IMG/VR virus record: IMGVR_UViG_3300013099_000058
Coordinates: 1-30,905 of that record
Source of the DNA: a virus
DNA length: 30,905 nt
Direction: 5' to 3' (one strand)
Positions 8,584 through 28,574 of the stretch are shown piece after piece. The notes under the pieces were generated by a model. It made no database searches, was not told where the DNA came from, and saw only the letters and a program-made list of their open reading frames with translations. Position 1 is the stretch's first letter. Every line of letters begins with the position of its first letter. The position numbers and the translations under genes are program-made.

Positions 8584-8602
8584 GTCTAGTTAGGTCAATT
8601 CA

Positions 8603-8619: not shown

Positions 8620-8622
8620 CTC

Positions 8623-8631
8623 TGGTATACT
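8623..8631 (+). promoter_or_regulatory. Extended -10 promoter before the endonuclease gene
   Basis: TGGTATACT matches TGnTATAAT in all but one base and sits between the post-capsid stem-loop and the GIY-YIG gene, whose AAGGAG ribosome binding site follows at about 8641. It gives the inserted gene its own transcription start. Confidence 0.55.
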
Positions 8632-8651
8632 CCTTACTTCAAGGAGATACT

Positions 8652-9362
8652 ATGGAATTAGTCAATGAACTAGGTATACTAGGTGTAGGTAGTGCTCGTA
8701 GAGCTTGGGGCACGTTTCTATGTCCTGCCTGTGAGGTAGAAGTAGATAAGCCACTTAATAGTGGTTATCGCAATAAGAGCTGTGGTAATAGTGTCTGCAG
8801 ACGTAGTATGTTTACACCTAATAAAAGCTGTAAAGGTAACACAAAACTGATACCTGACTACTCTCTACCATTTTACTCTTCAATTAAAGAGCGCTACAGG
8901 TTAATTAAACTAGAACATAAACTATGTAGTGAGTGGGGAACTTTAAAAGGCTTCATGGACGATATGTATGACTCATATGTTGAGGCTAGAATCAATTGTA
9001 AGTACCTTGCGTTTAATGTGGATGGTGCTGTGGCTTCTAAAGCCTCATGTATATGGACACCTAAAAGTAAGTACGCTAGATTTGATAAGTTAACAGCTTC
9101 TAAATCTTCGTATGTGTACATTGTGAGTGTTGAAGGGTTTTACAAAATAGGCATGACCAAACGTCTTGCAGATCGGATGGAGGCTTTCAATACCTCTAAC
9201 CCTTATGAAGTAAAGGTAGTCACAGCTATTCCTGTAAGTAATGCTTCTTCCATAGAGAAGAAGCTGCACTTACTATATGCAGAACACAACGTAAAAGGTG
9301 AGTGGTTTAACTTAACAGAGTCACAAGTTGAGGATATTATTAAATACCTTAACGACTTATAA
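8652..9362 (+). CDS. GIY-YIG (MUG113/T5orf172-type) homing-like endonuclease
   Basis: A 236-residue protein. The N-terminal part has four cysteines (24, 27, 44, 49) that probably form a zinc-binding DNA-recognition unit. The C-terminal 85 residues are a GIY-YIG nuclease of the MUG113/T5orf172 type: Tyr154-Val-Tyr156 and Tyr164-Lys-Ile-Gly167 form the signature, Arg175 is the expected catalytic arginine, and a Gly-Glu-Trp-Phe near residue 218 supplies the metal-binding glutamate. Such proteins cut DNA and often behave as free-standing homing endonucleases. It interrupts the head gene order between the capsid protein and the next virion protein, and has a promoter on both sides, as expected for a mobile insertion. 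Cysteine-rich composition also sets it apart from its neighbours. Confidence 0.85.
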   Translation: MELVNELGILGVGSARRAWGTFLCPACEVEVDKPLNSGYRNKSCGNSVCRRSMFTPNKSCKGNTKLIPDYSLPFYSSIKERYRLIKLEHKLCSEWGTLKGFMDDMYDSYVEARINCKYLAFNVDGAVASKASCIWTPKSKYARFDKLTASKSSYVYIVSVEGFYKIGMTKRLADRMEAFNTSNPYEVKVVTAIPVSNASSIEKKLHLLYAEHNVKGEWFNLTESQVEDIIKYLNDL

Positions 9363-9366
9363 GTTA

Positions 9367-9375
9367 TGCTATAAT
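9367..9375 (+). promoter_or_regulatory. Extended -10 promoter inside a dyad, after the endonuclease gene
   Basis: TGCTATAAT is a perfect TGnTATAAT box, starting 5 bases after the endonuclease stop. It is centred in the dyad GTTAT-6-ATAAC (9363-9378). A further small hairpin, ATAGG/CCTAT (9427-9441), lies before the AAAGGA ribosome binding site of the next gene. The promoter would restore transcription of the virion genes behind the insertion. Confidence 0.6.
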
Positions 9376-9460
9376 AACACCAGTTAAAAAGTAAGCGTAG
9401 TTTGAGATAACTGCAGATATATGGCAATAGGTAAACCCTATCCAATAAAGGAAATTAAAT

Positions 9461-10036
9461 ATGAGTAATACATTCGAAGATATGACTAACCCACAGCTTA
9501 AAGAAGCTTGTGAAGATTTTGGTTTAGAAGTGAAAGCAAAGAACCCTGCAAAACCTAATAAGACTGAGTACCTTGAGGCACTTAACACGTTTAAAGCTGC
9601 GCAAGATGCAACACATGGTGTTGATGAGGTAGAGGATAAAGAGGAAGAAGTTGTTACTTCTAAGCCTAAAGTAAAGGTACAGACACCTGCACAGTTAATG
9701 AAGTTAGACCTGTTTAAGAAAGATAGAGTTATTGTACATGACCAACAAGAGTCCCAAACTAAGGATGAGATGGTATCTATTTCTTGGGGTAATAGACGTA
9801 TTGGTGGTCAAACTGATTGGGTAGATGTGGGAAGTGGTGAACCACAATATATTAGACGTGGAGCTATTGGTAATTTAAAAGAGGCTACAATGGTTACACA
9901 CGTATCTAAGACTAACGGTGGTGCATCACAAGCACGTAAGAAGAGATTCATTGTTGTTGAAGTTGATAACTTAACTCCTGTTGAGTTTGATGACTTAAAA
10001 GCTCAACAGAAGATGCGTGCAAGCAAAATAGCATGA
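9461..10036 (+). CDS. Virion protein with HeH/SAP-like N-terminus
   Basis: A 191-residue protein with AAAGGA 9 bases before the ATG. The first 45 residues read as a helix-extension-helix (SAP/HeH-like) unit with the pattern Leu-Lys-Glu-Ala-Cys-x-x-x-Gly-Leu and Pro-x-Lys-x-Glu-Tyr-Leu-x-Ala-Leu, a small DNA- or protein-binding fold seen in several phage head proteins. A Glu/Lys-rich linker (about 55-80) joins a beta-rich C-terminal domain. It occupies the slot behind the major capsid protein, where N4 has gp55. A head or head-completion role is inferred. The family assignment of the C-terminal part is not known to me. Confidence 0.7.
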   Translation: MSNTFEDMTNPQLKEACEDFGLEVKAKNPAKPNKTEYLEALNTFKAAQDATHGVDEVEDKEEEVVTSKPKVKVQTPAQLMKLDLFKKDRVIVHDQQESQTKDEMVSISWGNRRIGGQTDWVDVGSGEPQYIRRGAIGNLKEATMVTHVSKTNGGASQARKKRFIVVEVDNLTPVEFDDLKAQQKMRASKIA

Positions 10037-10049
10037 TCTAAGTACTTAT

Positions 10050-10073
10050 AGAGGGCTGTCACAGCTCTCTTTT
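10050..10073 (+). terminator. Intrinsic terminator
   Basis: AGAGGGCT and AGCTCTCT form a stem with one G-T pair around a short GTCAC loop, followed by a T-run. It lies 13 bases behind the stop of the 191-residue gene and closes the capsid transcription unit. The next operon starts only 20 bases later, so either read-through or an unseen promoter must serve it. Confidence 0.75.
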
Positions 10074-10094
10074 AAATACTTATAAAGGATATGG

Positions 10095-10193
10095 ATGGGA
10101 CGTACAAAATGGTCTGAAAGTAATATAGTAACTGGTACTATCACATACACGATGTGTACTGATAGTACTTGGAAACTAAATAAGGAGTCATAA
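10095..10193 (+). CDS. Small coupled ORF, 32 residues
   Basis: ATG at 10095 follows AAAGGA (10084-10089) by 5 bases, the same extended site used before other virion genes. The 32-codon frame ends in TAA that shares its last base with the ATG of the next gene (TAATG), a strong sign of real, coupled translation. The peptide has one cysteine (residue 21) and two tryptophans. Its Lys-Trp-Ser-Glu start resembles the Lys-Trp-Ser-Asp at the start of the next protein. It could be a small virion protein or, given the radical SAM enzyme 1.2 kb downstream, a substrate peptide. The latter is speculation. Confidence 0.6.
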   Translation: MGRTKWSESNIVTGTITYTMCTDSTWKLNKES

Positions 10194-10498
10194 TGGCGGA
10201 TATAAAATGGAGTGATATTGTAGGCAATTGCACTGTAAGTGATGGAGGCTATGTTGGCTGTTTGATGCAGTTAGCTAGTGCTCACATAAATGCTGCTGTT
10301 GAGGCTTCCAGAATCACACAGGATCATGCAGGGGAAGTGTACACAACTATGATACCAGCTGCTATGCAACATGGTATAGGTTTTGCAATGCAGGATGAGT
10401 TGACTGAGGCTGAAATAGAGAAAGCTTTAGCTGAAACTGTTGTTGTGCAACAGAAGATCGTTGGACGTAAGCAACTACCTGCAGAGAGTGGTGACTAA
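10193..10498 (+). CDS. Small protein of the radical SAM operon (101 aa), hypothetical
   Basis: A 101-residue protein, coupled to its neighbours by TAATG overlaps on both sides. GGAG lies 5 bases upstream of the ATG. Two cysteines (residues 12 and 22) sit in a Gly-rich N-terminal stretch. The rest is helical and Ala/Glu-rich, ending in a basic-acidic tail. No domain is recognised. The tight coupling suggests that it works with the following proteins, probably in virion assembly. Confidence 0.75.
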   Translation: MADIKWSDIVGNCTVSDGGYVGCLMQLASAHINAAVEASRITQDHAGEVYTTMIPAAMQHGIGFAMQDELTEAEIEKALAETVVVQQKIVGRKQLPAESGD

Positions 10499-11422: not shown

Positions 11423-12373
11423 ATGAGCGGCTTTACTATTATAGACGAAGCTGTAACTATTGAGCTTACAACCAATTGTAACCTTAACTGTAGCTACTGC
11501 TACTTAAGTGAGGAAGCACGTACTGCTAAGTACAGTGCTGTTGAGGTGGGTATTAAAGCCATGAATCATTGCAGGGATATAGTTCGTACAATGAAGAGGG
11601 ACGGAGTTATACTTCGTTCAGTTATGCTACTTTCAGCAGAGCCTACGGTTCTGAATGCAAATCACCTAGCTATGTGTATTAATATATTGAGTGAACGTGT
11701 TGAACACATTCAGATTATGACTAACGGAGTTAGACTTGCAGATGAGGATTACTATAATTCACTTTTTAAGTTAGTGAAAGATGTAAGAGTTACTATAGGT
11801 GTAACTATAGATGGTTATAAGGAACTACATGATGCCGCTAGAGACAATAGTTATGATGACGCTGCTAGCACTGTTGCTAGGTTATATAAAGACAAGAGAC
11901 TAGAGCGCGTTAATATAGTGGTAGGTACAGAGGCTATTAAGGACCCTGAGAGGTTCAAAGCTTGGTATAAGGAGTTTATCCTTGATAGAGGTATTCTTCA
12001 CATAGCGAGCTCCGTAGAGCCTCCTGTGATACTAAGTATGCAGGAGCGTATGGCTATTATAAAGCTACTGCGTGATATGACTGATATGCATGGAGAAGCT
12101 ATTGATACAGACGTTGATATGTGTAGTAATGTACATATACTGCTTGATCGAGCTATAGCTCAATGTACCAATGACTGTGCTACGGTATCAGGTAAGTACA
12201 TTAACCTGGATTCAGACTTTAAACTGTTACTAGCCTCAAGGCAGTATTACACTAAAGTGATGAATGAAGAGTGCAAGACTTGTGATAAACAGGATATATG
12301 TAATGTGCATTGTCATTGGCATACAGCACCTAATGGGTTCGCTTTTAATTGTGCGTATGGTAGGAATGATTAG
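11423..12373 (+). CDS. Radical SAM enzyme with SPASM-like auxiliary cluster domain
   Basis: A 316-residue protein. Cys19-x3-Cys23-x2-Cys26 is the canonical radical SAM motif that binds the [4Fe-4S] cluster reducing S-adenosylmethionine. Later features fit the fold: the Thr-Ile-Asp-Gly-x-x-x-x-His-Asp strand of peptide-modifying members lies near residues 130-141. The C-terminus has Cys284-x2-Cys287-x5-Cys293-x3-Cys297 and Cys310, the exact spacing of the SPASM auxiliary-cluster region, although the usual Gly-x4-Cys upstream is not conserved (Cys248 and Cys252 may substitute). SPASM proteins modify peptides or proteins (for example anaerobic sulfatase maturases, PqqE, sactipeptide maturases). 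QueE is excluded by motif spacing and length. The gene is embedded in, and coupled with, virion genes, so a virion protein is the likeliest substrate. The substrate itself is unknown. Confidence 0.88.
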   Translation: MSGFTIIDEAVTIELTTNCNLNCSYCYLSEEARTAKYSAVEVGIKAMNHCRDIVRTMKRDGVILRSVMLLSAEPTVLNANHLAMCINILSERVEHIQIMTNGVRLADEDYYNSLFKLVKDVRVTIGVTIDGYKELHDAARDNSYDDAASTVARLYKDKRLERVNIVVGTEAIKDPERFKAWYKEFILDRGILHIASSVEPPVILSMQERMAIIKLLRDMTDMHGEAIDTDVDMCSNVHILLDRAIAQCTNDCATVSGKYINLDSDFKLLLASRQYYTKVMNEECKTCDKQDICNVHCHWHTAPNGFAFNCAYGRND

Positions 12374-14099: not shown

Positions 14100-15629
14100 A
14101 TGCAGGGTTTTAATTATACAGTAGACAATGGTCCAAGACGCCAGCTTACACCCGCGTTTCGTGTAGATGCTAACTTAGTTAAGCAATCAGCTACATCAGG
14201 GGCTCTCAACGCTTTTAAACAGTACGAGAAGAACCAGGCAAGAGACGCAACTGCGGAGCAGTTGGCGTTGAATAACGCTAGAGCTGATGAGACTCTTAAG
14301 TTACAGCAAGCTGCTAATACTAGAGCTATTAATGCTGATAGTAGAGCAGCGGCACAGGAGACTGACAGAGTAAGTGCGTTAGCACAGAAAGCTGCTCAGG
14401 AGAAAGCACTGGCTGGTATATATGATAATATGCCTGATAAGCAATTAGTAGATAAGACTGTTGTTACTCAAAAAGCAATACCAGGTACAGTGGACAACTT
14501 AGCTGCGGTGCAGAATGCACAGCGTGCTAACGCTATGACTGCGTTATCACAGGATGCGTTGAACAGTGGTAGATTCTCTATGCCTGCTGTGGCACCAGGT
14601 AAGGTACTGCCAAGTACGATACCTACCCACCCGCAGTCGAATGCGCTTGGGGACAGGGTTAAACCTGGGGTTGTGTTAAAACAGTATCCACAAGTGTACG
14701 GGGAAAGTCCCCATACATACTATGAAACGGCTGATGGTGAGGAGATGAGCTTAGTAGGTAAGTGGCTAGGTGGGTACGAAGAGGTTGACAACTTTGATAG
14801 GGTAAATCCTCTAGGTACAGAAACTAACCCTGTAGCACCTAACGTAATACGTGAGATTGATGTTGTTAAATCACCTGCTAAATCGAAAGAAGATACTACT
14901 AAAGACGATTACATTGCGAAGCAATTAGTAGCACTTGATAAGCAATTGAAGAAAGTACCAAAACGTTCAGTAGGCACTAAAGGTACCGCTGCACAGACTA
15001 AAGTTGTACAAGAAGAGATTGCTATGGATAGAGAAGGCAGGTTACAATACCTTGCAGATACTATTAGAGCTGATAAGACACTTACAGGTTCGGCTAAGAT
15101 AAATGCACTTAAGAACTTAGAGGTAATGGTACCTGAGACTAAGTCTGAGAAGGAAGCTGCACGTAAAGCGCGTATTAAGTGGGATGCTGAGACTCAGCAG
15201 CAGATTAAGGCTAAGTACGCTTCTAAGACTCCTACAGTATCTGAGCAGATAGCAATGCAGAAATACGCTGCAGGACTAGTTGATGAGGCTACCACGGTTA
15301 CCGAGTTAAAGAATATACACCCTAAGATGCCTGCTACAATTAAGACTCTCAAAGGTGCTGAGGCATATATTGCTAAAGTCAGTAAGAAACCTAAAGGTTC
15401 TTTTAACTTAGCCGAGTCTATGTACAGTGGCCTTAGCGGTAAGGATGCCGAGGATACACAAGCTGTTACTAAGTTCCTTAAAGATAATGCTAAAGCACTA
15501 AGTGCTATGAGCGCTGGGGAGCAAAAAGCTCTTGTGGCTAGGTATGTAGCGCAGTACTCTACTGAGAGTGGGTGGGATCCTACTGACTTCGTTGGTGGCT
15601 CTGCCGCTGGAGATGCCTTCAGTTACTAA
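14100..15629 (+). CDS. Helical internal virion protein (509 aa), hypothetical
   Basis: A protein of 509 residues from the ATG at 14100. A longer reading from 14049 would overlap the preceding gene and begin with an unlikely Arg-rich stretch, so 14100 is chosen, with coupling across a one-base gap. Residues about 25-110 are coiled-coil-like (Ala, Gln, Lys, Asp), residues about 115-260 are Pro/Gly-rich and extended, and residues about 270-470 are again helical with Lys. No cysteine and no enzyme motif are seen. Its position right before the three giant proteins suggests an ejected or internal core protein. Confidence 0.7.
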   Translation: MQGFNYTVDNGPRRQLTPAFRVDANLVKQSATSGALNAFKQYEKNQARDATAEQLALNNARADETLKLQQAANTRAINADSRAAAQETDRVSALAQKAAQEKALAGIYDNMPDKQLVDKTVVTQKAIPGTVDNLAAVQNAQRANAMTALSQDALNSGRFSMPAVAPGKVLPSTIPTHPQSNALGDRVKPGVVLKQYPQVYGESPHTYYETADGEEMSLVGKWLGGYEEVDNFDRVNPLGTETNPVAPNVIREIDVVKSPAKSKEDTTKDDYIAKQLVALDKQLKKVPKRSVGTKGTAAQTKVVQEEIAMDREGRLQYLADTIRADKTLTGSAKINALKNLEVMVPETKSEKEAARKARIKWDAETQQQIKAKYASKTPTVSEQIAMQKYAAGLVDEATTVTELKNIHPKMPATIKTLKGAEAYIAKVSKKPKGSFNLAESMYSGLSGKDAEDTQAVTKFLKDNAKALSAMSAGEQKALVARYVAQYSTESGWDPTDFVGGSAAGDAFSY

Positions 15630-15686: not shown

Positions 15687-18600
15687 TTGAGCAATATTGA
15701 TATAAGTAAATATTTAGCAGATGCACAGATTGCTGCAAATGATGTATATAACAACTCCTCACAACGTAAATCAGACAGACTACAAGAACGTACCGCTTCA
15801 AAGCAGGAACGTATAGGTACTTATGATAACCTAGTACAGACTGGGTATTTTGACCCTACTCAAAGCGTAGTGTCTAGTAACAACTTCAGAACCATAGACG
15901 GTGACACATTTGATCTTGGGCGAGATCATAGTACACGTATACTCGGTTCAGATACCTATGAGTCTACTAAGTCTAACTACAGTCAGTGGATAGCTGACCC
16001 TAAGAACCAGGATAGGATGAATAGACAAGTTGCTGCACTAACTGCAGCCACTGGTACACCTGCTACATACGCTGATGTCTTCGCTGCTGGTGATAAGCAG
16101 AAAGCAGAAGCCGATGCGGTCCTCCATGGCAACCTTCCCGTAATGCTTCAAGAAACTCTCCTACAGAATGCTGGTACACACGTAATGAAGAACGGTAAAC
16201 CTGTTAACTACGGCAGAGATCTAGGACATTACACCACATTAGGTGGGCAGTACTCTAATCCTGATGGTACTACTGGTAATGGTGCTATTGAAGTACTAGG
16301 AAGTAATGAACAGCAAGCGTTGGCTGATATGCAGAAGTATGGTACAGCTAAGTACGCTGGAGATACTTCTGAACATACAGCTGCTAACTTTGTACCAGTT
16401 ACGTCAGATGATGGCTTCTTCGATAGCCTTCTGAGAGTTCCACAGGCGATGCTGGCAGGAGCTGGTAAGAGTACCTATGATTTAGCAGATACAGCAGTTG
16501 AGGCTGTTGGTAACATTGCTGCACGTGGTGCTGAAGCTACAGGGTTTGACTCTATTGCGGACACCGTAGATAAAATGGATATTGCTACTGACAAAGAGAA
16601 GACTTCCCAGGTTAACTCCCTTATAGGGTACGACAACAAACACTCAGATAGTATTATGAAAGAATCAGGAGATAAGTACGTTAAGGCTATGAAAGATGTT
16701 GATCTATTTAGCCCTTCTACTTGGGGTAATATAGATACTGAGGCGCTAGGGGATTCAATCACTACTGCACTCTCTACTCCAGAGACAGCAGGTTATAGTT
16801 TTGGGTACTTAGCACCTGCTCTTATGGGTATACTTGAAAAAGGTGCGGTTAAACTGCTTAGTGTTGCCGGACAGCAAAGTGCTAAGAAGGTTGCAACTAT
16901 AGCGTCTAGTAAGACGTTATCTAAGGCTGCTAAGCGTAAACGTATTGCAGCAACTACTAGGAATATGTCATTAACTGATAAGTCTAAGATGGTACTAGCA
17001 GATCATGCTGATGCCCTTGGGTATGGTGCAATGATGACCAATGACCAACTAGATGAAGTTATGGTAGCTAACGGTGGTGAGAGAGAATCTCTATTTAAAG
17101 TCGGTTCAATGCTTGCACTAAACGCGGCAGGTATGAAGTTAGATATGGCTTCTGCTAGGGCTATAACTACTGGGCCTGGTGCTGCAGATAAACTAGTTAC
17201 AGCTCTAAAAGGTATGGGTAAAACTAAAGCTACACAGGTAATGGCGGCAGTAACTGCGTACGCTGCTAAGTTAGGCGCTGCCGGGTTAACGGAGATGCCT
17301 CAAGAGTTTACACAGTCATACATAGAAGCATTCAATAAGGCGTACGGAGTTAAGCAAGCTGATGGTACTAAAATGTCAGCTAAAGAGGCTGCGTTGTCAG
17401 AAGAAGTTCGTACAGAGGCTGGTCAAGGCGCTATAGCAGGGCTTACCAGTGCACCATACATGACGGCAGGTGCCTCAGTCGTAGGAAAGGTAAAAGAAGG
17501 CTTAGGACTAGCTGTAGGTAAAGCAGGGGAGAGCCTACAAGCACGTAAAGATGCTAAGGCTGTAGACACTGGTTGGAAGACTCCTGAGAGCATTCCTGAT
17601 GAAGATCTAGGTAGTGCTGTTGAAGCAATACATGAGGCTGAAGCTGGTATAGAAAGAGATGAAGAGCAGCCTTACAATAGAGAAGCGCATGCAGCTGCAG
17701 TTGTTAAGATTGACGAGAGAGAGGCTCCTATAGCTGAGTTAGATACAGATGATGTAGCCAACCTTCAAGAGGGCCAAACAGCTGAGATACTTCAAGAGAC
17801 TGCTAAAGGGTTTGACCATGACTATGCTATGGGTATGGAAGTACTTAAAGAGCAAGCAGCTATGGCTGTTGATAATGGTATTACAGATGTACACCCTAAC
17901 TTCGTGGAATTTGTTAAGCAAGGGATAGGAGGGTTGCAGGCTGATGCTGATGCCGTACTCGCAGCTGGTGGTACTAACAAGGCCGCAGCTATGCAGGCTA
18001 AGATAGATAGACTTATACCACTACTTACTGCTAACACTACACAGGAACTCAGTGCTATACTGAATGCACCTGGTATGGACGATAATACTAAGATTGCCCA
18101 GATAATGGGTAGTTCAGCTACTAGTACAGAGGATATAGATAACATCCTTAAAAGTACAGAACCTACAGAGAAGCAGAAGAAGTTACTAGAGTTAAAAAGA
18201 CAGACTATTATAGATGTTGCTGGCGTTAAGGAACAGAAGCTGACTGGTGGAGGAGCTAAGCCTGGTGTTATGCAATGGGCTGCAATGCTTATGGATGGTA
18301 AAGAGAATCCTGCTGCTATTAAACGTATTAATAACTTTGCAGATGGTCAGAGAACTAAGCTTAAAGAGTTTCAGAAGGTTATAGATGACTGGGATGTTAC
18401 GAATGGTATGGAGTGGACTAAAGAAGGTAATACCAAAGTGTATCCTCACAGTGACACTACACTACAGAATAAGATGCACTTACGTTCTAACTCTTCCATA
18501 AATTCTAAGTTAAGCTCCCCTATTACTTATAAGGGTAGTACTTATAAAGACATAGGTACTATTGCTAACCTAGCTAATGAAATGGAGAACGAACAAGTAA

Positions 18601-19667
18601 GACTAGATGAGTTACAGGCACTAGCTAATGATACGTCACCAGCAGCACAGCAAGGTGCCCAGGAGACACAAACAGGAACTAAGGGTAAAGATACTAGTGT
18701 AGCACCTGTAACGCCTTCAGCGCCAGCTGAGGATGCACCTGGTACTGGTGAAGGGCCAATGACTGGACAGGAACGTAGGGATAACCAGAACGGTAGCATT
18801 GCTAGGGACATTGCCAGTGGTAATGGTATAGCTAAAGATGACTTCCAACACTACGAGGCTAATAAGGCTGCGATAGATGAGTTAGTTGCTAGTATTAATG
18901 AAGCTAACAAGCCTACTGTAGAGGATCCTGTAGACACGTCACCAGAGACCCCTACGGAGCCCGTGAAGGCACCGGAGAAGAAACCTGAGGTAAGTACTCC
19001 TGTTAAGCCTGATAATGGCACTGACACCAACAGTATAACGTTAGAAGAAGCTAAGGCTTGGAAGAGACCTAAGATGCCTGACTGGTTAACCCCTGGTAAG
19101 GTAAGTAATTGGAATAAGGCAGTTGAAGAACTTGGAGCGGCCTATAAGAAGTTACCTGGTCTTGTGTACATGGCTGATAGTGGCAGGACTGCTGCTATGA
19201 GAAGGGATGCTAAAAAAGAACTAGATGCCCTCAACAAAAAGATCACAGCACGTAAGAATACTATTCAAACTCTAATGAAGAAGCCTAAGAAGTCTGATAG
19301 ACAGAATAGGATTGAGGATGCTGGCATTGAAAACTCTACCACTACTACCGATCCTGAGCAGGCTGCTAAGGATGTTAAGAATGCTATGAAGGGAGATCCT
19401 GTTAAGGTTAAGGAAGAAGATGCTGAAACTATAACAGAGCTGGACAAGGACTACGTGAGCCCAGACATAGACTATGCTGCTGAGATAGCTAAGCTGGATG
19501 CTAAAGAAACACCGGTTAAAAAGCAACCTACAACAGAAGATGCTATAATTGCACCAATAGAAGAAGACTCTACTACGATTGTAGAGAGTATAAACACAGA
19601 CCTAGACGCTATATTCAATTCATTTGAAACCGACGCTGTCGATGGTACTAAACCTTGCGGGATATAA
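15687..19667 (+). CDS. Giant virion protein A: N-terminal part of split vRNAP, SNase-like motif
   Basis: 1326 residues from a TTG start, with AAAGGATAT (15677-15685) directly upstream. Residues 70-92 match the staphylococcal-nuclease active site: Ile70-Asp71-Gly-Asp73-Thr74, Arg84, then Asp89-Thr90-x-Glu92 (compare SNase Asp19/Asp21, Arg35, Asp40-Thr41-x-Glu43). Tyr175-Gly-Arg177 could be the second catalytic arginine (SNase Arg87), after a longer insertion. Residues about 368-395 and 577-610 are hydrophobic or amphipathic. Pro/Thr/Glu-rich linkers lie at about 980-1030 and 1075-1110. The only cysteine seen is Cys1324, third from the end (Cys-Gly-Ile). Protein B follows one base behind the stop. 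By order and size it corresponds to the N-terminal third of the N4 vRNAP polypeptide. That equivalence is inferred. Confidence 0.7.
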   Translation: MSNIDISKYLADAQIAANDVYNNSSQRKSDRLQERTASKQERIGTYDNLVQTGYFDPTQSVVSSNNFRTIDGDTFDLGRDHSTRILGSDTYESTKSNYSQWIADPKNQDRMNRQVAALTAATGTPATYADVFAAGDKQKAEADAVLHGNLPVMLQETLLQNAGTHVMKNGKPVNYGRDLGHYTTLGGQYSNPDGTTGNGAIEVLGSNEQQALADMQKYGTAKYAGDTSEHTAANFVPVTSDDGFFDSLLRVPQAMLAGAGKSTYDLADTAVEAVGNIAARGAEATGFDSIADTVDKMDIATDKEKTSQVNSLIGYDNKHSDSIMKESGDKYVKAMKDVDLFSPSTWGNIDTEALGDSITTALSTPETAGYSFGYLAPALMGILEKGAVKLLSVAGQQSAKKVATIASSKTLSKAAKRKRIAATTRNMSLTDKSKMVLADHADALGYGAMMTNDQLDEVMVANGGERESLFKVGSMLALNAAGMKLDMASARAITTGPGAADKLVTALKGMGKTKATQVMAAVTAYAAKLGAAGLTEMPQEFTQSYIEAFNKAYGVKQADGTKMSAKEAALSEEVRTEAGQGAIAGLTSAPYMTAGASVVGKVKEGLGLAVGKAGESLQARKDAKAVDTGWKTPESIPDEDLGSAVEAIHEAEAGIERDEEQPYNREAHAAAVVKIDEREAPIAELDTDDVANLQEGQTAEILQETAKGFDHDYAMGMEVLKEQAAMAVDNGITDVHPNFVEFVKQGIGGLQADADAVLAAGGTNKAAAMQAKIDRLIPLLTANTTQELSAILNAPGMDDNTKIAQIMGSSATSTEDIDNILKSTEPTEKQKKLLELKRQTIIDVAGVKEQKLTGGGAKPGVMQWAAMLMDGKENPAAIKRINNFADGQRTKLKEFQKVIDDWDVTNGMEWTKEGNTKVYPHSDTTLQNKMHLRSNSSINSKLSSPITYKGSTYKDIGTIANLANEMENEQVRLDELQALANDTSPAAQQGAQETQTGTKGKDTSVAPVTPSAPAEDAPGTGEGPMTGQERRDNQNGSIARDIASGNGIAKDDFQHYEANKAAIDELVASINEANKPTVEDPVDTSPETPTEPVKAPEKKPEVSTPVKPDNGTDTNSITLEEAKAWKRPKMPDWLTPGKVSNWNKAVEELGAAYKKLPGLVYMADSGRTAAMRRDAKKELDALNKKITARKNTIQTLMKKPKKSDRQNRIEDAGIENSTTTTDPEQAAKDVKNAMKGDPVKVKEEDAETITELDKDYVSPDIDYAAEIAKLDAKETPVKKQPTTEDAIIAPIEEDSTTIVESINTDLDAIFNSFETDAVDGTKPCGI

Positions 19668-19668
19668 T

Positions 19669-22600
19669 ATGAGCTGTACAACATTTAAAGATTTAAATAC
19701 AATAGAATTAACACTTAATAATAAAGTATTAAAGGGTAACGCTAAAGACGCTACACCTAAAGTTAAGGCTGAAGGAGAGGCTGCTCAGAGAGACTTAGCA
19801 AGAGTTGAGCAAGCTAGAGAGTTACTAGAACAGCAAGCGTTCTACGATGACCTAGGTGTTACCATAAACGAGGCTGTATTATCCGTAGCTGATGACTTTA
19901 CTGAGGAGTATGAGAGTGATCCTGAGTACATTAAGTTACAGGAAGAGTTAGAGGCTATTATGGCTAATAAGACTGCAGCTGTAAATAAAATACTTAAAGC
20001 AACATACTACAATTCAAATAGTAAGTTCGGTAAGGTTAAAGGGGAGTATAAAGATGGTAAGTTTCAAATAGAGAATGCCGCTAATTATAATGAAACTCTA
20101 GACTCTTGGATAGATGGTAAGAATGAGTACATAGCTTCCCAGCAAGAAGCTGTTGAGAAGTTTAACTACATCTTAGCTAACTCTCCGAAGCTATCTGCAG
20201 ATAACAGAGCAGCTGTTGAGAGTAAGAAGTTTGATACTCAGGAGTCTATAAAGAAGGCCCAGGGTAAAGTTAAAGAGTGGGGAGGCTACAAGGCTTCTAA
20301 TGAGGCTAGAGCTAAACAAGCATCTAAGAATGTCAATGCTAAAGCTAAGGCCTTAGAGGAGAGTAAGGCACAAGCCGCTGCACTACAATTAAAGAATATA
20401 GAGATAGAGGATTACAAGGCATCTAAGACTGCAGGTGCTAAAGTGTTAAACACTGCCCCTGGTAACCATGGTTCTAGACTTAGTGATTTCTTAAAGCCTA
20501 AAGTTGTATTCAATAGGCTTAAAGAATACACTAATAATATAAGTGCTGCATTCACATCAGCTATGACATCTGCTATGTCTATTATGGAAGTGAAGGCTGT
20601 TAAGAACTCAGAAGCTATACTCACAAGAGTTGTAGCAAATGTAGAGGCCTCAGTTAAAGAGTACATGAATAAAGATATGGCTATTATAGATGTAGCTTAC
20701 CCTAAGGTTGGTGAAGGTTACCAAAGTATCTCCCAGTTATTACTAGTAGATGGTAAGCTAAGTGATGAAGTAACTTTAGCTATTGCTGTTGCTTCTACTG
20801 AATGGATGGCTAATGTGTCTTCAATGAGAGCAGGGCACCGTACTGAAAAGGTTGCCAAGCAGTTGCTTAAGAAGTCTGCAGGAGACTCTATGACACCAGC
20901 GGAATGGGATGCCATAGCTGATGTTGATATGTTTTTAACTACAGCTGCTAACTCTTTAGGTGCTGATATATCTAAGATAATTGGATGGTCTATAGATTTA
21001 GAGAATGATCCAGAAGCTGATCTAAAGAAAAGAAAGCTAGATAATGAGTTGGGACTAATTGCCCTACATGCACTAGCTCGTACTACTAAGGATAAGGACG
21101 GTAAGAAAGTACCTGGTATTATCACTATTAAGACTAAGGATAGTGCTGACATATTTGTTAAGAATAACACACTAGTTGAGAACGGTAGAAGTCGCCAGCT
21201 CAATGTAATAAAGTTTACAGCTAAAGGTAATGCGTATTTAGACAATAAGTCTGGTATTGCTTCACGTACAGCAAGGCTAATCTCGGATATATTTAATACT
21301 GAGAAGAAGTTGAAGCCTCCACGAGGTGCTAAAGCCAAGAAGAAGGTATTCAAGAATAAGTCTGGTATTCAGAATAAGCATACTACAGTTAATCCTACAG
21401 TACAGAGTGGCTTAAATGCTGCACAGAATGTTAAGTGGAACTGGAATGATGACTTTATAGGTGATGTGTTCCTAATGCTTGAAGATGAGGCCGGTAGAGA
21501 ACGCTTAGAGAAGTTAATGGGATATGTAGATCCAGCAACTAAGCACGTTAGGTACGCTAAGGCACTTACTTCTGAGAACAACAGGATTAAGAGAGAGATA
21601 ACAGAGCTTGAGGCTGCAAGAGCAGAGGCTATGCGTAAGGGTAATACATCAATATTCTTTGACTACTTTTATGGTAAGAATGGTAGAGTTTATGTAGAGA
21701 CTAATACTCTTAACCCTCAGCTATCTAAGTTACAGCTAATGGCCCTCTCATCTGAAGAAGGTGTAGTAACATCTGATAGAGATGTTGATATGTATGATAA
21801 AGCAATGGCTGGTGCATTTGGAGTTAAAACAGATAAGTTAACTTTACAAGATGATGTTAATGGTACACCAGGTATATTAACTACTTGGGCTAAGACCGAA
21901 GCTAAGTTACAAGAGCTAGAGATAAATACATTAGGCCTTGAAGATGCTATTACAGCTGTTGAAGACTACAATAGTGCTATTGATAGTAATAAAGATATGA
22001 GTAAAGCTGAGAAGAAGGCTGCTAAGATTGGTGGCTATGGCCCGCTACTTTTTGCAGGATTAGTTGAGTATCGTAAGTATGCTAATGCTAAAGCACTAAA
22101 TGGTAGTACTAAAGGGGTTAACCCTACTATTATTATGGAAGTTGATGGTGTTACTAATGGGTATGTACTTAAATCACTACAGATGCCTCTATTAGATGAT
22201 ATGAAGACATCACTGCAAAGTGGTGGGGTTATGATAGGTACTAGGTTTGATAAGAAGCCTAAACTAAGTAAGTACCAAGTGTGGGAGCAAGATGCAGAAG
22301 GTACTAGTGGAGTTATGTTTGAGTACGGAAGTACTACACAGCAGATAATGGATCCAAGTACACTAGATGCGTATGAAGTGCCTGCTAAGAAGATGGATGT
22401 GATGTTTCAAGCTATCTTTGGCAAGAAGAACACACAGCCAGAGTCTCTTAAAAGGTTTGCAGAGTTAGCTACATCGTCTAGCTTGTTTGCACTTAACAAT
22501 GACGGTAGTACGGAAATGCCTGAGATTACTAGAGAGTTTATGAAGCCTCCGTTTATGACGTTTAACTACGGTGCTGGTATGACTGGTATTATCCAGGATA

Positions 22601-24243
22601 TGGCTGACACTACCATAGATGAAGTATACAGCCTTTTAGAGCAATTACATGCAGCAGAGTTAGCTAATGATAAAGATGCCTCTAAGGCTCTTACAACACG
22701 CCTTGAGGCACTGTTTAGAGCTAGTAATGATACATGGGTTAAAGGTGAGAAGGGCTGGGAAGCTACTTCTACACCAATTGATTCAGAGCAGTTAATTAGA
22801 GAGTTACATACAGCTATAAGTAACGGTACTTTACTGCAGTTTAATATACCTCAGCCAACAATAGATGCCATGGGCTCTAGTGTTAAGGCTAGTGTAGGTG
22901 AAATGGTTAAGGAAGTATTCCAAGACTATAAGCCATTCATTGATGCGTCTACTACGATTAATGATTCATTTAAAGTTATGTTTAGATTGTTTAAAGCTAG
23001 ATTAGATGATGCTATAGAGTTTAGAGAGAAAGAGTTAAGTAGACCTCTTACAGAGAATGAAGTAGATGCAATTATCAGTGTACTAGGTGACTCGATGCCA
23101 GCTATTCAAACAGCACTTGCTGAAGGTGCTAAGGATAATCTAATTATTATGGACGAGTCTGCATCATTAGTTGATGCTGGTGAGGACGGAAAGATTACAG
23201 GTCAGACTAAGTATAGATACAACACTGCAACTGCTACTGCTCGTAATAAGACTAAGATTAACGCGTTAGAGCAGAAGCTCGCTACTGCTGCGAAAGGGCC
23301 TGAGTACAATAAGATTGCTGCAGAGATTAAGACCTTAAAGAACGGCTACACCTCTTCACAGGCTAAGCAGTACATATTGATTGAAGCTATGGCAGCTGGG
23401 TCAGTTATCCCTATTCACTTTATAGATGGTGTGTTAATGGCTAGTACGTTATCACAGACTAATGGCATGGGTAATCACGATGCTGTATATGAGTCGCCAC
23501 TAAATGTAGATCAGACTAGTAGCCACTACGATATGAAGATGGCACAGATAAGTAAAGAGTACAGTTTAACTGCTGAGATACTTAAAAGTCTCATATCAGC
23601 TATTAATAGTGCAGAGCCTGGACAGGTTAAGAAAGTTAATGAGCAGTACTTAGTAGAAGCGTACGATGTAACTAATAGTACAACTGTGCAGTCTGTAATT
23701 AGTGACATGAAGGACTTATATAGAAACTCAGAGAGAGGGCGTACAGAGGTATTAAGTAACCCTATACGTTACGACCACTTAGCTAATGAAGGTGGACACT
23801 ACGATTGGAATATGAGTGGGGAGGACTACGTAACACCTCCACTAGGTGCTAAGCTTTCATACAAGTTCTCTCAGGCTGATGAAATAGAGATGGAGAGTAG
23901 TACGTTTACAGACTCTGCTTTTGTAGAGATGTCATACCCTAAAAGTAACAATCCTGACAGAGTTAACCGTAAGAACACTGTTAGTTCAGTAGCTAAGCTT
24001 GGAGGCAAGTATATAGTGCATGTTGATGGGTGGGGTAACGCTGCGATTGTTGATGGCAAGACTGGGTTAAACAAGACTGGTAAGGTTAAGTTTGATATAG
24101 CGGAACTGGAGAGGCTACTTAAGATAGCACCGGTAGATCCTGCTATAATACCAGTTAAAAATAAAGCTACGTTAGATGGTTATAGTGATGCAGCAACAAG
24201 TGCAGCTCAAAGTATACTAGATAACGCGTGTGGGAGTAAGTAA
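19669..24243 (+). CDS. Giant virion protein B: virion RNA polymerase, N4 vRNAP-like catalytic part
   Basis: 1524 residues from the ATG at 19669. A longer reading from 19624 overlaps gene A and is rejected. It has the phage-type single-subunit RNA polymerase motifs in order. The Gly-Arg motif is Gly672-Arg673-Val-Tyr with Asn-Pro-Gln behind it. Motif A is Asp826-Gly-x-x-x-Gly831. Motif B is Arg955-x3-Lys959-x3-Met963-Thr964-x2-Tyr967-Gly968. Motif C is His1270-Asp1271. The two catalytic aspartates are thus Asp826 and Asp1271. The distances are wider than in T7 RNAP and nearer to those I recall for N4 vRNAP. The enzyme would be injected with the DNA and transcribe early genes. The first 600 residues are helical and lysine-rich. 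Only two cysteines are seen, Cys3 and Cys1521 (four from the end). No N4-like polypeptide of 3500 residues surrounds it. A and C take those places. Confidence 0.9.
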   Translation: MSCTTFKDLNTIELTLNNKVLKGNAKDATPKVKAEGEAAQRDLARVEQARELLEQQAFYDDLGVTINEAVLSVADDFTEEYESDPEYIKLQEELEAIMANKTAAVNKILKATYYNSNSKFGKVKGEYKDGKFQIENAANYNETLDSWIDGKNEYIASQQEAVEKFNYILANSPKLSADNRAAVESKKFDTQESIKKAQGKVKEWGGYKASNEARAKQASKNVNAKAKALEESKAQAAALQLKNIEIEDYKASKTAGAKVLNTAPGNHGSRLSDFLKPKVVFNRLKEYTNNISAAFTSAMTSAMSIMEVKAVKNSEAILTRVVANVEASVKEYMNKDMAIIDVAYPKVGEGYQSISQLLLVDGKLSDEVTLAIAVASTEWMANVSSMRAGHRTEKVAKQLLKKSAGDSMTPAEWDAIADVDMFLTTAANSLGADISKIIGWSIDLENDPEADLKKRKLDNELGLIALHALARTTKDKDGKKVPGIITIKTKDSADIFVKNNTLVENGRSRQLNVIKFTAKGNAYLDNKSGIASRTARLISDIFNTEKKLKPPRGAKAKKKVFKNKSGIQNKHTTVNPTVQSGLNAAQNVKWNWNDDFIGDVFLMLEDEAGRERLEKLMGYVDPATKHVRYAKALTSENNRIKREITELEAARAEAMRKGNTSIFFDYFYGKNGRVYVETNTLNPQLSKLQLMALSSEEGVVTSDRDVDMYDKAMAGAFGVKTDKLTLQDDVNGTPGILTTWAKTEAKLQELEINTLGLEDAITAVEDYNSAIDSNKDMSKAEKKAAKIGGYGPLLFAGLVEYRKYANAKALNGSTKGVNPTIIMEVDGVTNGYVLKSLQMPLLDDMKTSLQSGGVMIGTRFDKKPKLSKYQVWEQDAEGTSGVMFEYGSTTQQIMDPSTLDAYEVPAKKMDVMFQAIFGKKNTQPESLKRFAELATSSSLFALNNDGSTEMPEITREFMKPPFMTFNYGAGMTGIIQDMADTTIDEVYSLLEQLHAAELANDKDASKALTTRLEALFRASNDTWVKGEKGWEATSTPIDSEQLIRELHTAISNGTLLQFNIPQPTIDAMGSSVKASVGEMVKEVFQDYKPFIDASTTINDSFKVMFRLFKARLDDAIEFREKELSRPLTENEVDAIISVLGDSMPAIQTALAEGAKDNLIIMDESASLVDAGEDGKITGQTKYRYNTATATARNKTKINALEQKLATAAKGPEYNKIAAEIKTLKNGYTSSQAKQYILIEAMAAGSVIPIHFIDGVLMASTLSQTNGMGNHDAVYESPLNVDQTSSHYDMKMAQISKEYSLTAEILKSLISAINSAEPGQVKKVNEQYLVEAYDVTNSTTVQSVISDMKDLYRNSERGRTEVLSNPIRYDHLANEGGHYDWNMSGEDYVTPPLGAKLSYKFSQADEIEMESSTFTDSAFVEMSYPKSNNPDRVNRKNTVSSVAKLGGKYIVHVDGWGNAAIVDGKTGLNKTGKVKFDIAELERLLKIAPVDPAIIPVKNKATLDGYSDAATSAAQSILDNACGSK

Positions 24244-27200
24244 TGGCATGTAATACTAAACAGGAAACTATAAATAAGTTAACAAAGGTTCTAATGAAGG
24301 ATCTTAAAGCAACTAATACAGGAATGTCACATAGTGATATTAAAGCTAAAGCTACTACAGATGCAGAAGCGTTAGTGGCTGCTAGTATTGCAAACATGGA
24401 AGAAGATTTTGCAGATGAAGCAGACGCCCGTAATGCACTCCCAGGTGGAGCTGTGCAGGAGCTTAATGCTGCTAACCCTAAGGTTGGTAAGGCAAAGGTT
24501 ACTGTTACTGAAGTGAATAATGGGCAGGTGTATGTTAAGTTCCCTAATGGGACTAAAGAGTACCCTTATAGTCCAGGTGAAGTAGCACTAGACCAGAAAA
24601 GCACTGAAGGTGTTATAAATAAGTATATAGGTTCATCTGATACAAGTACAGAGGATACATTCCAAGATACTTATGTAGATAGTGATGGGTCTATGAATAA
24701 GTCAGCCAACCTGAATGAAGAGTTCGTAGCTCAAGATAAAGTTAACAACGGTGTGAACTTTGACACAGATCATAGTGAGCATTTAACAGGTATACTTGAG
24801 AGAATGGTAGCTATGGTAAACAGCTTACAGGATGGTAAGGTTAAGATTCGTAAGAAGGCTATGGAGAAGGCTATTAGAGAGATGGGTGCATCAGGTTCCC
24901 TTAATACTAGCACTGGTGAAGTAAGTGTTGATATGGATACACATGGCCCAGGAGCTGAGTTCAGAACTAAGTTTAGCATGGGTAACCAGGAAGTGTATGT
25001 TCATGAGTTAGTGCATGCTGCTATGAACTTCATGTTTGATAAGAGTAATTTAAATGTAGCTAAAGATCCAGAGCTTCTAGCTATGATTACAAATCTTGAG
25101 AATCTACATGCTAAGGCTAGAAAGAATAGTAAGTGGCAGGACTTGTTACCAGGGTATGAGAACAAGAGTCAACAATACTCTAAGAGAGAAGTAGCCCAGG
25201 CTAAGGGTTACAAAAATAAGCATGGTGACTGGGTACAGGGTAAGTGGGACTACATATTCAATAACAAGACACCAGGTAATGGGTTACATGAGTTCATGGC
25301 TGGATTACTGACTAATAGCGCCTTTAAGGAAGCTATGGAGAAGGTAAGTACTTTAGACCTTAAAGCGGATAAGGCTGACGAGAAGTTAGTTGAGAAGATA
25401 CAGAACTGGTTTAACAATATACTAGAGAAGATATTTGGGTATGCTACTAATAAGAGAGATAACAGTATTACTAAAGAAGGTACCAGATTAATATTTGATA
25501 TTATGAGAGCTAACAGTAATGCTGTGGATAGAGTAGCTAGGAAGAGTCCTATGGAGTCTGTTAACAAGGCTTTAGATAAAGCTGCTGCTAAGATTGAAGT
25601 AGCTAATGATCAAGTGAAGAAGATAACTGATCCATTTGTAACACTAGGAGGCTTCCTAGATACTGCTATAGCGAATAAGAGTGAAGTATTAGATGCGAAG
25701 GGTGTAGAGGAGTTTGTTAAGCTACAACGCAAGGTGGCGAAGTTAGTCAACAGGGGAAGAGAGGCTAAGGATGGTAAAGGTTTAATAGGCCTTATGAATA
25801 ATGTAATTACAACTATTGATGCAGTACAGCGGCTACTGCGAGCATTGCCATCTATCTATAAGATGAATAAGTATGCACAAGGTTCTAAGGCTAATAAGAG
25901 TATGGGCAAGGCATTTGAGAAAGCTAATAACATGCTACTAGAGTCTATACACTTAGCACAAGATGGTATGGTACGTGGAATTGTTAGAGACTTTATGGAT
26001 AAGCCAGGTATATACAACTATTTAGCAGACTCAATACTAAGATTAACTAAGAGTGTAGATAGTGCGCGTGAGGCTGCTTATGAAGGAACACTTAAAGGAC
26101 TTAATGATGGATTTGGTGATGTAAGTATTGCTAATGATATAGTTAATAAGAAGCACAATGAGGCCCTTACAGACGTCGTACTACGTACAGACATACAAAG
26201 CCTAGGGTTAGATGCAAAAGACCTTGAGGAGCTTCTACGTGATCCTGGGGAGGTATCTCAAAGAGTAGCTGAACTTGAGCAAGGTTTGAGCTATGAGCAG
26301 ATACAAGATGCTGAGTCATTAGCTAATTATATGGTAACTGGTGTAGGTACTGCTAGTAATGCTTCTAATATTGCTTCTAAGTTTGGGCATGATAGACCTA
26401 ATTTAGATATGGATGCAGCTACGATAAAGCAGATAGATCAATTAGTTAGTTATAAAGCATTAGAGATGACGCCACAAGAGTCTAAAGAGACTCTAGCTAG
26501 CTTCTTAGCAGGAGAGCAATATGTAGACTACTCTACGTCACTATGGAATAGAGCACTTAAGAAGTCACAACTATCATCTAAGACTCCTCTTAGTAAGAGT
26601 GAGTACAAGAAGCAAGTACTAGAAGGTACACAGCACTTCATAGATAGAAGTAGAGGCCTGCAGGCAGCTTCTGAGAGAGAGATGCGAAGTAACCCTCATA
26701 ACGCTATAAAAGGCTATGTTAAGGATACGTACCAATCTGATGCTTCATTAGAGATGCATCCTATTAAGGATATGCAGAAGTTAGAGAGAGAAGGTTTTAA
26801 GTTTGTAAGACCACTTAAGGCAGTACCAGGTACTAACACTATATATGGATTATATGTAAGTACAGTCCCTGCTGTTAAGAGAGCTAATGGTGCATTAGGG
26901 CTACAAGATAGAAAGTCTAGAGGATTCACATTACAGGATGTTATATCTAGAGAGTCTGCTAATGATACTACTGGAAAGTGGGATGGTATTAGAAAACATG
27001 AGGCTTTTAGAAAGTTATTGAAGCAAACTAAAGCAGATTACAAAGAGAATAAAGATGTAGGTATGAGCCCTATGTATGATCAATATGGTAATATAATTAA
27101 CTTTAGAGCTACAATGAGTATAGCTGAGAAGCAAGAGCATTTAGATCTAGAGACTAGAGGTACTGAGAATCTAGCTAGATCATATAGTACTATGGGAACA

Positions 27201-28574
27201 GCTGCAACAACTGATAGACATAATAGAGAAGTGATTGATTTATTGTATAAAGATTTCTTGGACAATTATAAAGAGAATAGTGAGGATTATGTAGTTATTA
27301 AGCCTGATGACTTAACTGCTGAGGATTATGGGATGCCTATGGCGACAGCTCCACAGAGTGTTGAAGAGTACAGCCGTTTATGGGCTAGACTGCCTAAGGG
27401 TGCTAAGCAGTACGCTACAGAGAAGTTTCAGGGTAACCAGATAGTTATTAAGAAGGAATTGCTACAGGTAGCGTTCGGAGAGGATAATTATAGTATTACA
27501 CAGAGCAAGTTATTAGAAGGTTTAAAGCCGAGTACACTAGCTACACTTAAGAAGGTGGAGAGTGTTTGGCAAGATACTATGCAGATAGCTAAGTCTAATA
27601 TTGTTATTAAGACTCCTGAGGTACTTTTAGGTAACTTGGTGTCTAACTTTAAGATACTACTGTACTTAGGAATTCACCCTGTTAAAGGTGCTAAGTTAAT
27701 GTTAACTGGTGCTAGGGAGTTGAAGAAGTATGAGGCCGATAGTAAAGAGCTGGCTAGTGCTTATAGGAATAAGGATGCTGGTGTTGATGTAAGTGAGAGT
27801 TATATTAATGATTTGAAGAGGTCATTACAGCAGAATACTGTAACGCCGTTAATGGATGCTGGTTTATACCAGTCTATTGTGGAGGATGTTAATACTGCTA
27901 ATGAAAGTAATCAAGTAGCTAAATGGTTTAGTGATAAGACTGATAGATACATTACTAATGAGACAGCAAATACTGCTATTCAGTACTTATTCATGACTCA
28001 ACGTACTAAGCCTTACCAGCAGTTATTGAAAGCCACTCAAGTGAGTGACTTCTATTTTAGATATGCACAGTACTACAGTGCTATTGATAAAGCGGATACT
28101 GGGTTAGATAATGCTAATACTTTAGAGGAAGCGTATACACAGATACTAAAACATACGTCACCTGAGTTTAATAGTAAGTTAACTATGGATGAGACTGGCT
28201 TAGCTAAGGTTAAGGCTGATCCTAAGTATAGGGAAGCTTTTAAAGCCAAGGCTATGAGAGATGCTATAGATAACTATATTAACTACGAGGCACCTCTTGA
28301 GAAGCATATCCGGTACGGAGATGCTATGGGTACTTGGTTCTTTGTTAAGTACTTTGTGAAGTCACAGAAGGTTATTAAGAAGTTAGTTAAAGACAATCCA
28401 CTTAGAGTAGGTGCTGATATATTAGCTCAAACGTTTATTACAGGTGATACTGCAGATGTACTTGATTCTAGTATTCTAGATAAAGGTTTAAATACGTATA
28501 ACCCACTTAAAATAGTTAGTAGGTTAGGAGAGTTTATCGACCCTTCACTGCGTGGAGTGGTGTCTAATATTTAG
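24243..28574 (+). CDS. Giant virion protein C: C-terminal part of split vRNAP, zincin motif
   Basis: 1443 residues. The ATG overlaps the stop of B (TAATG), with GGGAG 6 bases upstream. Residues 254-258 are His-Glu-Leu-Val-His, the HExxH zinc-protease motif, preceded by a strand (Glu-Val-Tyr-Val). His349-Glu350-Phe-x-Ala-Gly could supply the third zinc ligand as in gluzincin-like domains of large polyvalent phage proteins. The remaining 1100 residues are mostly helical, Lys/Glu/Ala-rich, with a hydrophobic stretch near residue 1140. The only cysteine seen is Cys3 (Met-Ala-Cys). It takes the place of the C-terminal part of N4 vRNAP, which I recall being needed for packaging the polymerase. Protease activity is unproven. 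Possible targets are the host periplasm, the scaffold, or A and B themselves. Confidence 0.7.
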   Translation: MACNTKQETINKLTKVLMKDLKATNTGMSHSDIKAKATTDAEALVAASIANMEEDFADEADARNALPGGAVQELNAANPKVGKAKVTVTEVNNGQVYVKFPNGTKEYPYSPGEVALDQKSTEGVINKYIGSSDTSTEDTFQDTYVDSDGSMNKSANLNEEFVAQDKVNNGVNFDTDHSEHLTGILERMVAMVNSLQDGKVKIRKKAMEKAIREMGASGSLNTSTGEVSVDMDTHGPGAEFRTKFSMGNQEVYVHELVHAAMNFMFDKSNLNVAKDPELLAMITNLENLHAKARKNSKWQDLLPGYENKSQQYSKREVAQAKGYKNKHGDWVQGKWDYIFNNKTPGNGLHEFMAGLLTNSAFKEAMEKVSTLDLKADKADEKLVEKIQNWFNNILEKIFGYATNKRDNSITKEGTRLIFDIMRANSNAVDRVARKSPMESVNKALDKAAAKIEVANDQVKKITDPFVTLGGFLDTAIANKSEVLDAKGVEEFVKLQRKVAKLVNRGREAKDGKGLIGLMNNVITTIDAVQRLLRALPSIYKMNKYAQGSKANKSMGKAFEKANNMLLESIHLAQDGMVRGIVRDFMDKPGIYNYLADSILRLTKSVDSAREAAYEGTLKGLNDGFGDVSIANDIVNKKHNEALTDVVLRTDIQSLGLDAKDLEELLRDPGEVSQRVAELEQGLSYEQIQDAESLANYMVTGVGTASNASNIASKFGHDRPNLDMDAATIKQIDQLVSYKALEMTPQESKETLASFLAGEQYVDYSTSLWNRALKKSQLSSKTPLSKSEYKKQVLEGTQHFIDRSRGLQAASEREMRSNPHNAIKGYVKDTYQSDASLEMHPIKDMQKLEREGFKFVRPLKAVPGTNTIYGLYVSTVPAVKRANGALGLQDRKSRGFTLQDVISRESANDTTGKWDGIRKHEAFRKLLKQTKADYKENKDVGMSPMYDQYGNIINFRATMSIAEKQEHLDLETRGTENLARSYSTMGTAATTDRHNREVIDLLYKDFLDNYKENSEDYVVIKPDDLTAEDYGMPMATAPQSVEEYSRLWARLPKGAKQYATEKFQGNQIVIKKELLQVAFGEDNYSITQSKLLEGLKPSTLATLKKVESVWQDTMQIAKSNIVIKTPEVLLGNLVSNFKILLYLGIHPVKGAKLMLTGARELKKYEADSKELASAYRNKDAGVDVSESYINDLKRSLQQNTVTPLMDAGLYQSIVEDVNTANESNQVAKWFSDKTDRYITNETANTAIQYLFMTQRTKPYQQLLKATQVSDFYFRYAQYYSAIDKADTGLDNANTLEEAYTQILKHTSPEFNSKLTMDETGLAKVKADPKYREAFKAKAMRDAIDNYINYEAPLEKHIRYGDAMGTWFFVKYFVKSQKVIKKLVKDNPLRVGADILAQTFITGDTADVLDSSILDKGLNTYNPLKIVSRLGEFIDPSLRGVVSNI

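Follow-up and report, generated by a model that had tools for sequence, protein, structure and literature searches.

Cysteines at the facing ends of split N4-like virion RNA polymerases suggest a head-to-tail chain of ejected proteins

We will describe three consecutive genes, A, B and C, found in the contig of an uncultured virus with 30,905 bases (IMG/VR record IMGVR_UViG_3300013099_000058), which was analysed over its full length and is called the window throughout. They encode a single N4-like virion RNA polymerase (vRNAP) which is split at its two inter-domain linkers: A is the N-terminal part, B the polymerase and C the C-terminal part. Together they have 4293 amino acids (aa) and only four cysteines; every facing end has one, whereas the two outer ends lack it. 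A survey of other split vRNAPs finds the same placement at every junction, and crassviruses, with an unrelated polymerase, follow the same rule. Head-to-tail disulfides probably rebuild one linear vRNAP chain in the virion; the chain would then be passed along the tail as a thread, and its links would be reduced in the host cytoplasm. The main features are the following:

15687..19667, plus strand: A, N-terminal piece of the split vRNAP, in the position of the N4 N-terminal domain (NTD); TTG start, 1326 aa
19656..19658, plus strand: cysteine codon A1324, the sole cysteine of A (1326 aa), facing end between A and B; the protein ends in GTKPCGI
19669..24243, plus strand: B, RNA polymerase (RNAP) piece, an N4-type single-subunit RNAP; ATG start, 1524 aa
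19675..19677, plus strand: cysteine codon B3, facing end between A and B; the protein starts with MSCTT
22138..22161, plus strand: motif A of the RNAP in B, EVDGVTNG, with the catalytic Asp826
24229..24231, plus strand: cysteine codon B1521, facing end between B and C; the protein ends in DNACGSK
24243..28574, plus strand: C, C-terminal-domain (CTD) piece, N4 CTD C1+C2; ATG start, 1443 aa
24249..24251, plus strand: cysteine codon C3, the sole cysteine of C, facing end between B and C; the protein starts with MACNT
25002..25016, plus strand: zincin-like HExxH motif in C (HELVH), also present in N4 CTD subdomain C1

An earlier reading of the window, here called the original prediction, had located cysteine solely at A1324, B3, B1521 and C3, and had seen none at the free N-terminus of A or the free C-terminus of C. 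The translations of the open reading frames (ORFs) confirm both statements, and the interior of the three proteins is free of cysteine. The placement had also been considered very unlikely by chance: with four cysteines placed uniformly we obtain a probability of about 1e-10. An alternative in-frame ATG for B is found upstream (MVLNLAGYNMSC..); we have taken the start at 19669, because this ATG comes directly after the stop of A and yields the conserved M-x-C start. Neighbouring ORFs of the window outside the ejection module have an ordinary cysteine content; the ORF at the terminase position and the radical-SAM ORF, for example, have 13 each.

The identity of the proteins is given by several comparisons. 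In a search of this record B matches the central part of the vRNAP family phrog_2206 (E 2.7e-71) and C matches the same family (E 2.1e-119); C also aligns with its C-terminal third, positions 2217-3379 (E 9.8e-117). With tblastn, B finds N4-like vRNAPs (AD45 phages, E 4e-24) and C finds them in 267 phage records. A alone gives no tblastn match; its N-terminus can be aligned with the A pieces of loci L219 and L235. The T7-like RNAP motifs of B (DxxGR, A, B and C) align with those of N4 as KNGR, EVDGVTNG, KPPFMTFNYG and HDA, and the HExxH motif has been described in N4 vRNAP (PMC12633501). Upstream of the three genes there are matches to portal and major head protein families. Homology and gene position suggest that A, B and C would be carried in the virion and delivered to the host by ejection. 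Three other searches gave nothing useful: a scan queried with B alone found no relatives, broad vRNAP alignments were too divergent to serve as queries, and phmmer with B and C alone had no match in the PDB. Profile matches to N4 structures were discounted as circular, since N4 is part of the profile.

When the proteins are aligned with gp50 of N4 and five further unsplit vRNAPs, the cuts come out at about residues 989 (A to B) and 2173 (B to C) of N4 gp50, approximate values, as linkers are poorly conserved. In N4 the linkers span residues 907-1007 (NTD-RNAP) and 2102-2123 (RNAP-CTD) (PMC12633501). The cuts thus fall at or near the inter-domain linkers: the window has a vRNAP cut at its flexible linkers. 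It departs from the N4 type in two features: instead of one chain of about 3500 aa there are three ORFs with separate starts and stops, and instead of no cysteine there are four, all at the facing ends.

Eight IMG/VR scans and one GTDB genome scan, queried with RNAP or CTD sequences and never with cysteine, gave 144 vRNAP loci after a first de-duplication. Breaks were dropped when homology crosses frames, or crosses a stop with no start nearby; cysteine content was not a criterion. Once duplicate fragments and these artefact breaks were removed, 43 split loci with 65 junctions were kept. They have two pieces (23 loci), three (17) or four (3), as listed; one of the latter, L267, has a nonsense codon within a middle piece. 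All 65 upstream pieces have a cysteine in their last five residues, at positions 1 to 5 from the C-terminus in 20, 22, 11, 10 and 2 cases, and 64 of these ends have exactly one. With automatic starts the downstream pieces have a cysteine at residues 3-6 in 62 of 65 cases, and in all 65 after three start corrections: in the window 19669 replaces the upstream ATG and gives MSC, in L175 MAC lies inside an overlapping upstream ATG frame, and in L235 a GTG start following a 180-nt gap gives VAC. The downstream cysteine is mostly residue 3 or 4, never 1 or 2. The original prediction expected the terminal cysteines to be conserved in homologues, and no homologue with the same split lacks them among the 43 loci and 65 junctions.

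The remainder of these proteins is almost devoid of cysteine. The junctions account for 130 of the 136 cysteines found in 169,321 aa of split vRNAPs, and the interiors have 7 in 167,141 aa. Cysteine is present in 1/38 outer N-termini and in 0/39 outer C-termini; the only case is L266, which has a second ATG after that cysteine. When the loci are thinned to less than 60% identity in the RNAP core, 39 lineages with 60 junctions are left, and 24 lineages with 38 junctions below 40%. Among the nearest relatives of the window, B1521 is one of only two invariant columns in an alignment of seven B C-termini, and C3, like the HExxH motif, is one of 17 invariant residues in eight C pieces.

Single-chain vRNAPs are also practically free of cysteine. 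Its absence in N4-like vRNAPs has been explained by their passage through the tail and the periplasm (PMC2784036, PMC3715699, PMC4837373, PMC3915230). In 66 full-length single chains (227,887 aa) we have found 7 cysteines in total, and 61 of the 66 have none. Of the five which do, L038 has two cysteines near a start which is probably over-extended. The terminal CDC of L108, another of the five, is discarded as a frameshift: the next frame continues with the ending of L151.

We have mapped the split state on a tree of 139 RNAP cores. Four changes are required, and the branches of at least two are well supported; the count is unrooted and does not distinguish gain from loss. Five architectures are present, a hyphen marking each cut: AB-C, A-B-C, AB-X-C, A-B-X-C and A-BC. 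The last one is found in L228, outside the main split clade, and the facing-end rule also holds there. L221 is truncated by the end of its contig. The middle beads X, between the RNAP and CTD pieces, have cysteine at both ends and no detectable vRNAP homology; most have their own HExxH zincin-like motif. They are found in these loci:

12453-13676 of L181, 12610-14937 of L182, 12277-13356 of L183 and 12299-13420 of L210: middle-bead proteins, present also in L225, L234 and L244

L198 (5771-15193) is a single cysteine-free chain of 3147 aa in which both junction tails are missing. It lies within the split clade, where L195 and L196 are its sister group (SH-aLRT 98), and is an apparent fusion with loss of both cysteine tails. 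A single chain within the split clade which has no cysteine tails indicates that the cysteine pair goes with the split.

Crassviruses have giant virion RNAP proteins which were detected in crAss001 virions (PMC10172136). We have counted seven of these viruses (crAss001, phi14:2, cr128_1, DAC15, cr106_1, cr111_1 and phi17:2), leaving out gp037 of phi17:2 as a bead, since it is an unrelated inserted gene. All 14 junctions obey the rule, with cysteine among the last 10 residues of one protein and the first 8 of the next; the outer ends have none (0/7 and 0/7). In crAss001 gp47 ends in RCNS, gp50 starts with MSKRC and ends in ICGANTLYEL, and gp49 starts with MAKKC; in phi14:2 g067 ends in TIC, g066 starts with MACK and ends in QECK, and g065 starts with MSCK. 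Two-protein versions agree: cr1_1, cr4_1 (TAG read as Gln) and crAss002 (a later ATG assumed). The crassvirus RNAP piece has no detectable homology with the N4 type (hhalign probability 0.2%); the only match between the two groups is short (E 1e-7) and lies at a zincin-like segment of the protein in the gp49 position. The gp47 gene lies on the opposite strand in crAss001 (with respect to gp50 and gp49), cr128_1, DAC15 and cr106_1, which excludes a shared junction sequence or translational coupling as the cause. The cysteine ends also predict a chain order, gp47-gp50-gp49, in L270 (crAss001), L271, L272 and L275-L279 (Crassvirus, Lightbulbvirus).

A head-to-tail link between the ends of A, B and C had been proposed in the original prediction. 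It is by far the best reading of the data: no split is a counterexample, the middle beads, L228 and the crassviruses conform to it, and L198 has lost its tails together with the split. We infer that the link is a disulfide, present in virions and reduced after entry, since each end has one cysteine whose sole partner is the facing one, metal ligands are not enriched, the placement is terminal and the destination is reducing. In the oxidised virion each facing pair would form an inter-protein disulfide and give A-S-S-B-S-S-C, one essentially unbranched chain. A link at the extreme ends would add almost no width, and the chain could pass a tail channel of about 35 Å, its pieces travelling in fixed order and 1:1:1 stoichiometry. 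The reducing host cytoplasm would then open the links and free B both from the membrane-associated N-terminal part (A) and from C, whose N4 counterpart inhibits transcription (PMC12633501). The remaining chain would be kept free of cysteine, so that wrong disulfides could not form. Such a connector would also allow further proteins, mostly zincin-like with HExxH, to be added as extra beads. With somewhat less confidence we consider likely a general rule, valid for N4-like and crass-like phages with their unrelated polymerases: ordered proteins ejected through the tail would be joined end to end by disulfides of terminal cysteines and parted in the host cytoplasm, modules being added, fused or swapped as beads.

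Several observations weigh against this interpretation. A search of 25 phage records gave no DsbA gene; a search for Erv1 is uninformative, since it detected nothing in its controls and so had no positive control. Oxidation would therefore need air after lysis or host enzymes, and for phages whose gut hosts are anaerobic this is uncertain. A disulfide chain would also need some guard against B-B or A-C pairing. AlphaFold models of the tails (C start and B end) have low confidence, with mean pLDDT 57 and 44, and are silent on the link: in these weak models residues 1-3 of C are uncertain and 3-24 form a helix, and B has a helix close to its cysteine. Finally, crassvirus gp50 and gp49 have some interior cysteines, so that cysteine exclusion is weaker there.

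The terminal cysteines of neighbouring pieces might instead bind a metal ion or an iron-sulfur cluster, within one chain or between vRNAP copies. One cysteine per facing end is predicted in this case as well, and four of them could meet, since about four vRNAP copies have been reported per N4 virion (PMC4496689). We consider it unlikely: there is usually exactly one cysteine per end, with no CxxC and no enriched histidine, aspartic acid or second cysteine nearby. Histidine is in fact 0.6% at the ends vs 1.3% inside, and a metal site has no need of an extreme terminal placement.

Alternatively, the cysteine pair could act in the cell, for example through a short-lived disulfide which oxidoreductases of the host periplasm would form during passage, or as a redox-sensitive contact in assembly after entry. 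The vRNAP does cross the periplasm, and a facing-end placement would suit assembly after entry. However, the ordered ejection of two to four separate giant pieces would stay unexplained, and a contact within folded domains needs no position at the end of a chain; we give this possibility little credit.

New chain ends might also drift under relaxed constraint and gain cysteine by chance; the C-terminal tails are indeed otherwise poorly conserved. The counts reject this idea. The non-vRNAP ORFs of the split loci have 0.92% cysteine and carry it in the last five residues in 9% of cases and in the first six in 4.5%, vs 65/65 and 65/65 at the junctions; the outer ends of the same proteins practically lack it, and it is invariant where the remaining tail varies. 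The ORF which precedes A is the following:

14100..15629, plus strand: cysteine-free ORF in the gp51 (ejection protein) position, directly 5' of A

Its start was set at the ATG following the two cysteine codons of the frame. In the split loci ORFs in this position have no cysteine at all (0/36), which leaves A without a partner for its outer end.

Such splits might come from errors of sequencing or gene calling, or from read-through of a stop codon, as has been proposed for AD45 and pSb-1: the AD45 split was considered a likely gene-calling mistake or read-through and its ORFs were joined, and pSb-1 (NC_023589, L268) was also joined as one vRNAP (PMC10654107). Some breaks are indeed of this kind. 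L017, L022, L041, L160, L186, L251, L254 and Shigella phage pSb-1 were rejected as frameshift or nonsense artefacts, and so were the first breaks of L203 and L227. In L022 an in-frame TAA (5991-5993, TAT to TAA) in the RNAP-CTD linker is a nonsense mutation or a sequence error, with an intact relative, L020, 99% identical. The first eight breaks lack facing cysteine pairs, whereas in a genuine split the downstream piece has its own ATG or GTG close to where the upstream piece stops; about 39 lineages below 60% identity have such splits. For the 43 loci an error is thus rejected. Alteromonas phage AD45-P1 (NC_021532, L002), labelled 'potential frameshift' in GenBank, has two clean ORFs, one ending in SKHCKQ and the next starting with MTICTNP, and no further cysteine in either coding region. 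On this sequence evidence AD45 is a genuine split, and pSb-1 is a frameshift artefact. The length and ExDGxxxG filters of PMC10654107 would discard many split members. The breaks of L249 and L256 look like frameshifts.

A signal in the nucleotide sequence of the junction (ribosome binding, coupling or RNA processing) which incidentally encodes cysteine has hardly any chance: 120 of the 130 junction codons are TGT, but TGC is used as well, the facing codons are 10 to 199 nt apart, the rule is kept by crAss001 gp47 on the other strand, and the junction between the gp51-position ORF and A, in the same operon, shows no cysteine upstream. A split intein was discarded, since A, B and C have no Pfam intein family and the cysteine is not at a splice residue. 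Native chemical ligation and lipidation were also discarded: there are no such domains, and a cysteine which is never residue 1 or 2 leaves no room for N-terminal cysteine chemistry.

Other features of these loci deserve mention. L207 has a vRNAP piece (8141-10339) starting with MASCIEN whose upstream neighbours do not resemble A; the missing piece may be encoded in another part of the genome, and the end of the ORF is a likely frameshift. L098 and L173 belong to a 124.7-kb contig (IMGVR_UViG_3300026544_000001) whose ends overlap by about 125 bases; it is probably a near-complete genome with circular permutation, and exceeds the usual 70-80 kb of N4-like phages. In L264 a vRNAP closely related to the split one of AD45 is found on a contig which was binned with a Sulfolobales archaeon MAG, probably by contamination. 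In the window a radical-SAM gene (11423-12373, PF04055, E 2e-11) lies within the virion gene cluster, and next to the major head protein gene there is an ORF (8652-9362) whose product combines a MUG113/T5orf172 (GIY-YIG-like) domain with a cysteine-rich N-terminal half.

The passage of the giant N4 polymerase through a channel of about 35 Å has been posed as an open question (PMC12633501). If the disulfide chain is real, a redox-reversible end-to-end link would explain at once the order, stoichiometry and release of a polymerase of 400-700 kDa, and would also account for the avoidance of cysteine in these ejection proteins. Some, at least, of the split vRNAPs which were written off as gene-calling mistakes are real. 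Facing-end cysteines suggest that the order of ejected proteins may be predicted from sequence only, also in crassviruses, which are abundant human gut viruses. We have found no published description of cysteine-flanked vRNAP splits in the open-access literature. The vRNAPs themselves were already known; the connector rule is apparently new, and there is a strong case for a general principle.

The closest known system is gp50 of N4, the vRNAP of Schitoviridae. It shares with A, B and C the order NTD-RNAP-CTD, the catalytic motifs, the HExxH of the CTD, the near absence of cysteine and a gene position after the ejection-protein genes; it is however one chain of 3500 aa with no cysteine, whereas the window has three proteins with one cysteine at each facing end. 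The vRNAP of Alteromonas phage AD45-P1 (Efbeekayvirus) is cut, as in the window, at the RNAP-CTD linker with cysteine on both sides, but in two pieces instead of three. Split inteins and native chemical ligation also place cysteine at the junction of pieces, but the pieces of the window have no intein domains. The crassvirus cargo (crAss001 gp47, gp50 and gp49; phi14:2 g067-g065) is likewise a giant ejected RNAP made of several proteins with facing-end cysteines; it differs by an RNAP piece which is not detectably homologous and by some interior cysteines. Disulfides have been described in the tail of crAss001, in a paper whose searched text makes no mention of cysteines in the cargo (PMC10172136).

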